Positions 54,375 to 55,631 of a DNA stretch of 64,000 nt are shown one piece after another. Position 1 is the first letter of the stretch. Each line of letters begins with the position of its first letter. Source of the stretch: Phascolarctobacterium faecium DSM 14760. GTDB lineage: Bacteria; Bacillota; Negativicutes; Acidaminococcales; Acidaminococcaceae. The stretch is taken from the NCBI RefSeq assembly GCF_003269275.1, contig NZ_QLTS01000009.1:1-64000 (forward strand). Direction: 5' to 3'. Below the pieces are notes generated by a model that searched no databases, was not told the DNA's origin, and was given only the letters and a program-made list of their open reading frames with translations. The position numbers and the translations under genes were made by a program.

Positions 54375-55070
54375 ATGAAAAAGTATGAGTTGACAGCAGA
54401 GTTTATAGAACAATGGGGCAAGAAATTATTTAGGATTAAGGCTTTAATTAGCTTTGGAAGTGTTGAAGCTGGTGAACTTGGTGGATATGTGGAAAAAGAA
54501 GATAACTTAGCGCAAGATGGCGACGCTTGGGTGTACGGCAACGCTTGGGTGTACGGCAACGCTAGGGTGTGCGACGACGCTTGGGTGTACGGCAACGCTT
54601 GGGTGTACGGCAACGCTAGGGTGTGCGACGACGCTAGGGTGTGCGGCGACGCTTGGGTGTACGGCAACGCTAGGGTGTGCGACGACGCTAGGGTGTACGG
54701 CAACGCTAGGGTGTGCGGCAACGCTAGGGTGTACGGCGACGCTGAGGTGTACGGCAACGCTGAGGTGTGCGACGACGCTTGGGTGTACGGCAACGCTTGG
54801 GTGTACGGCAACGCTGACTATTTATTGATCGGTCGCATTGGTAGTAGATTTAGTTTTACGACATTTTTCAAAAATAAAGACAAAGGTATAACAGTGTCTT
54901 GTGGTTGTTTCTTAGGGACTATTGCCGAATTTAGAGCTAAGGTTACCGATACACATGGAAATAATAAGCACGCAAAAATGTATAACCTTGCTGCAGATAT
55001 GGCAGAACTACAGATTTTAGGGGAAGAACATTTTGACAAGCTGAACACTAATAAGTCAGAACCGTTTTGA
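54375..55070 (+). CDS. YdcK-like left-handed beta-helix repeat protein
   Basis: The 231-residue protein begins with ISFGSVEAGELGGYVEKEDN, like E. coli YdcK, then sixteen six-residue rungs of the type A-[WRE]-V-[YC]-[GD]-[ND] (residues 51-146) that should stack as a left-handed beta-helix. A mixed C-terminal domain (DYLLIGRIGSRFSFTTFF) follows. The hexapeptide fold is shared with acyltransferases, but no catalytic His is evident, so a structural or binding role is likely. AAAGGAGCGG precedes the ATG. Confidence 0.75.
   Translation: MKKYELTAEFIEQWGKKLFRIKALISFGSVEAGELGGYVEKEDNLAQDGDAWVYGNAWVYGNARVCDDAWVYGNAWVYGNARVCDDARVCGDAWVYGNARVCDDARVYGNARVCGNARVYGDAEVYGNAEVCDDAWVYGNAWVYGNADYLLIGRIGSRFSFTTFFKNKDKGITVSCGCFLGTIAEFRAKVTDTHGNNKHAKMYNLAADMAELQILGEEHFDKLNTNKSEPF
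54525..54812. repeat. Sixteen 18-bp tandem repeats
   Basis: Units follow GCT-NNG-GTG-TRC-GRC-RAC (R is A or G). The Ala and Val codons are invariant. The second codon is TGG, AGG or GAG, and the other changes are A/G transitions at three sites. The repeat keeps all six frames open, which explains false overlapping frames. Confidence 0.9.
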
Positions 55071-55079
55071 GGTGAGATT

Positions 55080-55277
55080 ATGAATTGCGATATATGCCAT
55101 AAGGATACAACGGCGGGGAGTCTCGTAACCAGAGGCCGACGTTTTAAGGTGCATATTTGCCCGAACTGCTTGATGTGGTCAGATGATACACGGGCCGTGA
55201 AGGCACGGGAGATATTTAATAATATTAAAAGATTGCAGGACAAGGAATACGTTAGCATAAGTGGCGAGCAGGAGTGA
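55080..55277 (+). CDS. Small Cys-pair phage protein
   Basis: The 65-residue product has two CxxC pairs (CDIC and CPNC) spaced as a zinc ribbon. GAGGTGAG precedes the ATG. Likely a small DNA, RNA or protein-binding factor; function unknown. Confidence 0.6.
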   Translation: MNCDICHKDTTAGSLVTRGRRFKVHICPNCLMWSDDTRAVKAREIFNNIKRLQDKEYVSISGEQE

Positions 55278-55300
55278 GGACAATGAATTTATTTTAGTTA

Positions 55301-55385
55301 AAACGGCCGCGCATACTAACTATATACAAGCATAAAGGGAAGTATACCCCTGCGGAGGTGATTAGCCCGTAGGGGGCGGCCTTTT
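55301..55385 (+). ncRNA. Candidate structured RNA (three-way junction)
   Basis: GGCCGC (55305-55310) pairs with GCGGCC (55376-55381), extended by AAAA/TTTT outside a bulge. Within it ATACT (55313-55317) pairs with AGTAT (55341-55345), and CCCCTGCGG (55347-55355) pairs with CCGTAGGGG (55367-55375) over nine base pairs. The three helices join with almost no linker bases. The segment lies in a gene-free gap and the 3' end is T-rich. No known class recognised. Confidence 0.55.
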
Positions 55386-55406
55386 AAATATAAGGAGTTG
55401 GAAATA

Positions 55407-55631
55407 GTGAAACCAATAAATATAAAAATTATGATGGCGTTAATCGAAAAAGAACCAGGCGATCAGTATGTACCGGTATTGAAACCAGTACTTATGCAGA
55501 TACTGACTGAAATCAAACATTTGCGCCGGAAAAATAGTCAGCTCGGCGGTAAAAATGCCCGGTTAAGGCGAGAGAAGAAAGCTCTAGAAATTATGTTATC
55601 GGCGGTAGTAATAAATGACGACGTGGAATGA
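55407..55631 (+). CDS. Small basic coiled-coil phage protein
   Basis: A 74-residue product with a helical, strongly charged second half (EIKHLRRKNSQLGGKNARLRREKKALEIML). The start is GTG 55407 behind AAGGAG; a TTG at 55398 overlaps that site. It overlaps the next gene by 17 bases. Function unknown. Confidence 0.6.
   Translation: MKPINIKIMMALIEKEPGDQYVPVLKPVLMQILTEIKHLRRKNSQLGGKNARLRREKKALEIMLSAVVINDDVE

Follow-up and report, generated by a model that had tools for sequence, protein, structure and literature searches.

A gap between two small genes in a prophage of Phascolarctobacterium faecium DSM 14760 can be folded into a compact RNA structure, raising the question of whether it is a phage RNA motif and what such a motif might do. 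We studied it in a window of 64,000 nucleotides (contig NZ_QLTS01000009.1, positions 1 to 64,000) and in its relatives. Little work has been done on phages of the Negativicutes, a class of gut bacteria, and no Rfam family matches the element. Probably, it is a controllable transcription stop in phage early genes.

Fold and genomic setting

On the minus strand, at 47.9-50.0 kb, the prophage carries genes of integrase and repressor-like type. The element lies in the rightward early operon, whose gene order is NinB-like, HNH, DnaD-like, beta-solenoid and small genes. The beta-solenoid gene (window positions 54375-55070) is of the YdcK type and consists of 18-nt-type tandem repeats, whose arrangement varies among sister prophages. 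The element fills the gap between the neighbouring small genes, which measures 120 nt (55278-55397) and not 80 as initially annotated. The same annotation described the gap as having no reading frame, which holds apart from four codons just before the first helix, P1. The features are as follows.

55080..55277, + strand: upstream gene, encoding a 65-aa small Cys-containing protein (ORF, annotation)
55283..55297, + strand: 4-codon remnant ATG-AAT-TTA-TTT-TAG, whose stop codon abuts P1 (sequence, comparison with the sister prophage L026)
55298..55387, + strand: whole structured element, closed by P1 (fold, covariance-model match, homologues)
55298..55310, + strand: P1 5' arm, UUAAAA-C-GGCCGC with C55304 bulged (conserved in all four members, with C-G, U-G or U-A at one pair)
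55313..55317 with 55341-55345, + strand: P2, AUACU/AGUAU, 5 bp (fold)
55321..55332, + strand: conserved core block 1, UAUAUACAAGCA (identical in all four members)
55323-55327 with 55342-55346, + strand: alternative P2, UAUAC/GUAUA (UAUAC alone is present in all members)
55337..55345, + strand: conserved core block 2, GGGAAGUAU (identical in all four members)
55347..55375, + strand: P3 hairpin, CCCCUGCGG/CCGUAGGGG, lineage-specific (one two-sided change in L026; absent in two members, G022 and G005)
55376..55387, + strand: P1 3' arm, GCGGCC-UUUUAA, a terminator-like GC stem and U-run (fold, comparison of members)
55398..55631, + strand: downstream gene, 77 aa, with a ribosome-binding site starting about 5 nt past P1 (ORF)

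The element in the window folds into three helices with a minimum free energy of -35.9 kcal/mol (z -3.1). P1 has an A-U part (UUAAAA/UUUUAA, 6 bp, 55298-55303 with 55382-55387) and a GC part (GGCCGC/GCGGCC, 6 bp, 55305-55310 with 55376-55381), while P3 has 9 bp, one of them G-U (55347-55355 with 55367-55375). The junction linkers are 2, 1 and 0 nt long. At this place, the three helices with almost no linker that were originally proposed are confirmed, as is the AT-leaning setting (surrounding GC about 40%). Only 1 of 200 dinucleotide shuffles is as stable as the 96-nt fold of the element, which ranks 11th by minimum free energy among 1598 windows of 96 nt, so the stability is unusual yet not unique by energy alone. 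The energy model prefers the AUACU pairing over UAUAC by 1.6 kcal/mol in the window, and by more in L026. Folding does not pick the strand, as the reverse strand, relative to shuffles, folds equally well or better in G022 and G005.

Relatives in other prophages

The exact element is present in one IMG/VR contig, which matches the window over kilobases. We found three diverged relatives, each in a single copy: one in the sister prophage L026, one in G022 (a Phascolarctobacterium MAG) and one in G005. The family of four belongs to Acidaminococcaceae prophages, and a search of the host genome and each related prophage region found one copy apiece.

The first relative occurs in the sister contigs L025 and L026, at the same syntenic spot and behind the same 65-aa gene. 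Between the window and L026, four long blocks of the element differ by one base, and the compared stretch of the upstream gene is about 70% identical. An ORF in L026 (2319-2399) fuses a DNA methylase N-terminus (MNKIICGDAL...) to a tail whose last residues before the stop codon are INLF. The 4-codon remnant in the window has the same NLF and stop and is all that is kept there, so the methylase gene beside the RNA element seems to have been lost through an internal deletion. Two other sister contigs, L023 and L024, lack the element. In its place (L023:2050-2510 and L024:165-630) they carry an N-terminal methylase fragment and, after it, the C-terminal remnant of an IS605-like TnpB with a long structured tail.

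The G022 member was found with a covariance model built on the window and L026 sequences. The route to the G005 member was a prophage with a DnaD-like protein sharing about 45% identity with its G022 counterpart. An unfiltered model search scores this member as a weak match (E 5.7), yet its core is exact, its P1 exceeds 10 bp and it occupies the same place before a sliding-clamp-like gene. The search models R2 and R3 were partly built from fitted or excised core sequences, with R3 lacking the variable inserts, and so the scores that they give to the window, L026 and G022 do not count as independent evidence; G005 is absent from every model.

A scan of 85k species genomes for the exact core gave nine places, only one of which has P1 (CASDXO010000008.1, from an uncultured Phascolarctobacterium, which corresponds to the G022 member). 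Pattern scans of 380 genomes across the class recovered three true members, all of them known ones, and three chance places without P1. Scans of viral contigs using the neighbouring genes gave zero further members, and BLAST against plasmids and phages gave no full-length or structured match. Weak model matches elsewhere in the class are mainly ordinary bidirectional terminators with the stem AAAA-GGCYGC...GCRGCC-UUUU.

None of 4227 Rfam families matches any of the four members at its curated cut-off, even when matches with E up to 10 are listed. We rejected a GAIT match on the G005 member, which is below the cut-off and belongs to a eukaryotic family. Our literature searches gave no account of such an element in these phages. 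It may overlap with candidates of a human-microbiome RNA survey, which reports phage-associated and palindromic terminator-like candidates (PMC8040213).

Conservation across the four members

Common to all four members is P1 enclosing UAUAUACAAGCA and GGGAAGUAU, the gap between the two blocks being 4, 13, 21 or 64 bases. Every member is sense to its operon and has the same layout: a stop codon, 0-3 nt, P1, the core, P1 and the next ribosome-binding site.

In a four-member hand alignment checked by script, P1 pair 12 is C-G in the window, U-G in L026, U-A in G022 and C-G in G005. In G005, the bulged C acquires a partner, giving two extra P1 pairs. P3 occurs in the window and L026 and has no counterpart in G022 or G005. 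In L026, it has a two-sided change (C-G to U-A) and one-sided changes that keep the pairing, such as G-U to G-C, and under the alignment used seven of its nine pairs form, the two missing ones being outer pairs. Shuffle controls on two to four sequences cannot give significance to these changes.

The covariance-model search proposed at the outset thus has a divided outcome: changes in P1 and P3 keep the pairing, but P2 and P3 are missing from G022 and G005. The compact three-way junction was initially put forward as the motif, yet P1 is found in 4/4 members, P3 in 2/4 and the original P2 is feasible in 2/4 (the window and L026), so the junction is not the conserved feature. The broader proposal of a phage RNA motif is borne out by relatives in three other prophages, none with an Rfam match, and by the pairing kept in P1 and P3. 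The core blocks, which the first model left mostly unpaired, could pair as UAUAC/GUAUA, or with a one-step shift, in all members. Since the core is invariant, covariation does not support its pairing.

In both G022 and G005, the element comes immediately before a phage sliding-clamp-like gene (phrog_947 in G022). The clamp-like proteins of the two prophages are 32% identical and the DnaD-like proteins 45%, while the core is identical; at the element itself, blastn between the two detects no similar DNA. An unchanged core next to proteins that retain only a third of their residues points to strong selection on some function. About 60 kb of the window's contig contained no recognizable relative of the clamp gene, and the link between the element and this gene is therefore not a fixed one. 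The divergent sliding-clamp-like proteins right after the RNA element are encoded at L046:15259-16407 (G022 prophage) and L069:6183-7328, in prophages of two genera.

Possible functions

We tentatively favour the view that this undescribed phage RNA element is a cis-acting conditional terminator with a recognition core in its loop. The element would be carried in the mRNA of the early or replication operon of Acidaminococcaceae prophages, with the A-run, GC stem and U-run of P1 acting as an intrinsic terminator or attenuator between the stop codon and the next ribosome-binding site. The core UAUAUACAAGCA...GGGAAGUAU, most likely a short stem interrupted by an internal loop rich in purines, would be recognized by a phage or host factor that determines whether transcription continues. 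Alternatively, the stem could be governed by a ribosome that terminates on the stop codon next to it; such a ribosome would cover the P1 5' arm, which would couple the control to translation. Additional hairpins such as P3 may be lineage-specific additions. If this is true, phages have in it a small natural switch for their early genes.

We favour a terminator with a core-bearing loop because of the placement between stop codon and ribosome-binding site, the A-run, GC stem and U-run of P1, and the terminator-like nature of the weak matches. Termination, its regulation and the nature of the factor are what we infer; the observations themselves are the fold, the four-member family, its placement and orientation, and changes in P1 and P3 that preserve pairing. 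In the window, L026 and G022, GCGGCC or GCAGCC directly precedes UUUU, and in G005 GCGGCCCG precedes UUUUU. The U-run is thus only 4-5 long, and the loop between the P1 arms, at 46-88 nt, exceeds the short loop of an intrinsic terminator. A simple terminator scan with loops of 3-8 did not report the element on the + strand. The downstream gene differs among the window, L026 and the clamp-gene members; hence there is no single regulated target, which counts against a conditional terminator. The more ambitious idea of a new phage riboregulator family, whose core within a terminator stem responds to a factor, a ribosome or RNA polymerase and so switches downstream early genes, is possible, but we consider it on the unlikely side.

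Intrinsic terminators, including bidirectional ones, share with the element an A-run, a GC-rich stem, a U-run and a position between co-directional genes, and the stem sequence of the element is close to that of ordinary terminators in the class. It could therefore be a plain, unregulated terminator that insulates gene modules, with a passive inner sequence that spread with the stem by recombination. The resemblance of P1 to ordinary terminators fits this idea, as does the gene turnover at the gap, where relatives show a methylase deletion, one additional gene and a remnant of IS605-like type. However, intrinsic terminators have loops of a few bases, whereas this loop holds two blocks conserved across divergent prophages and, in two members, a branched junction. 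Blocks of 12 and 9 nt that are identical although adjacent proteins are 32-45% identical are not expected of a passive loop, and we regard a plain terminator as unlikely.

Rather more doubtful is a free phage small RNA, transcribed or processed from the operon, that would end at the U-run of P1 and use the core blocks to act in trans. The stable closed structure, the terminator-like 3' end, conserved stretches with little predicted pairing and the variable downstream genes all suit it. By contrast, we found no recognizable promoter at a constant distance, and every member sits tightly between a stop codon and a ribosome-binding site, a position that favours cis action over a free RNA. Other phage-borne structured RNAs, such as c4 antisense RNA and further phage motifs in Rfam, differ in that cmscan finds no match to them at E up to 10.

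Improbable, in our judgement, is a riboregulator or antiterminator that acts in cis on the nascent RNA, either riboswitch-like or binding RNA polymerase as put does, in which the stem is a scaffold only. A two-block core over variable loops inside a closing stem does have the usual aptamer-like look; a common downstream function and similarity to Rfam families are absent. The put antitermination RNA of HK022, compared by description, likewise belongs to an early operon of a phage, is nascent and has a similar size, but it consists of two adjacent hairpins without the core of our element. Riboswitch-type attenuators such as the crcB and pfl motifs (PMC2864571) also combine a conserved core with an overlapping terminator in a leader, whereas the present element has no Rfam match or shared downstream function and is found in prophages only.

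A DNA-level element, namely a hairpin for recombination, transposition or replication, is very improbable: its inverted terminal repeats, the gene-turnover spot and the folding of both strands are outweighed by one copy per prophage, no visible target-site duplication, the same orientation in each operon, and U-G and G-U intermediates, whose pairing requires the sense RNA. The constant orientation and these intermediates lean towards a sense RNA.

Several other readings were rejected. A DNA site would have fixed spacing, and the 4-64 nt between the core blocks suit an internal loop of an RNA better; as half-sites of a DNA-binding site the blocks would be spaced just as variably, and the sites do not recur. 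Possible promoter hexamers at the core are too variably spaced, and the single copy rules against a MITE or multicopy repeat. Coding was discarded on account of stops in the window frame reading YTS across the core; a weak match, L053, lies within a coding gene. Small self-cleaving ribozymes (hammerhead, twister, pistol, hatchet, HDV-like) gave only sub-threshold chance Rfam matches, and HEARO, twister, hammerhead or HDV-like RNAs are not supported as identities of the element.

A second intergenic hairpin pair occurs in the G022 prophage (L046:17101-17190). It is plain, has a T-run and shares TGGGAAGTAT with core block 2.
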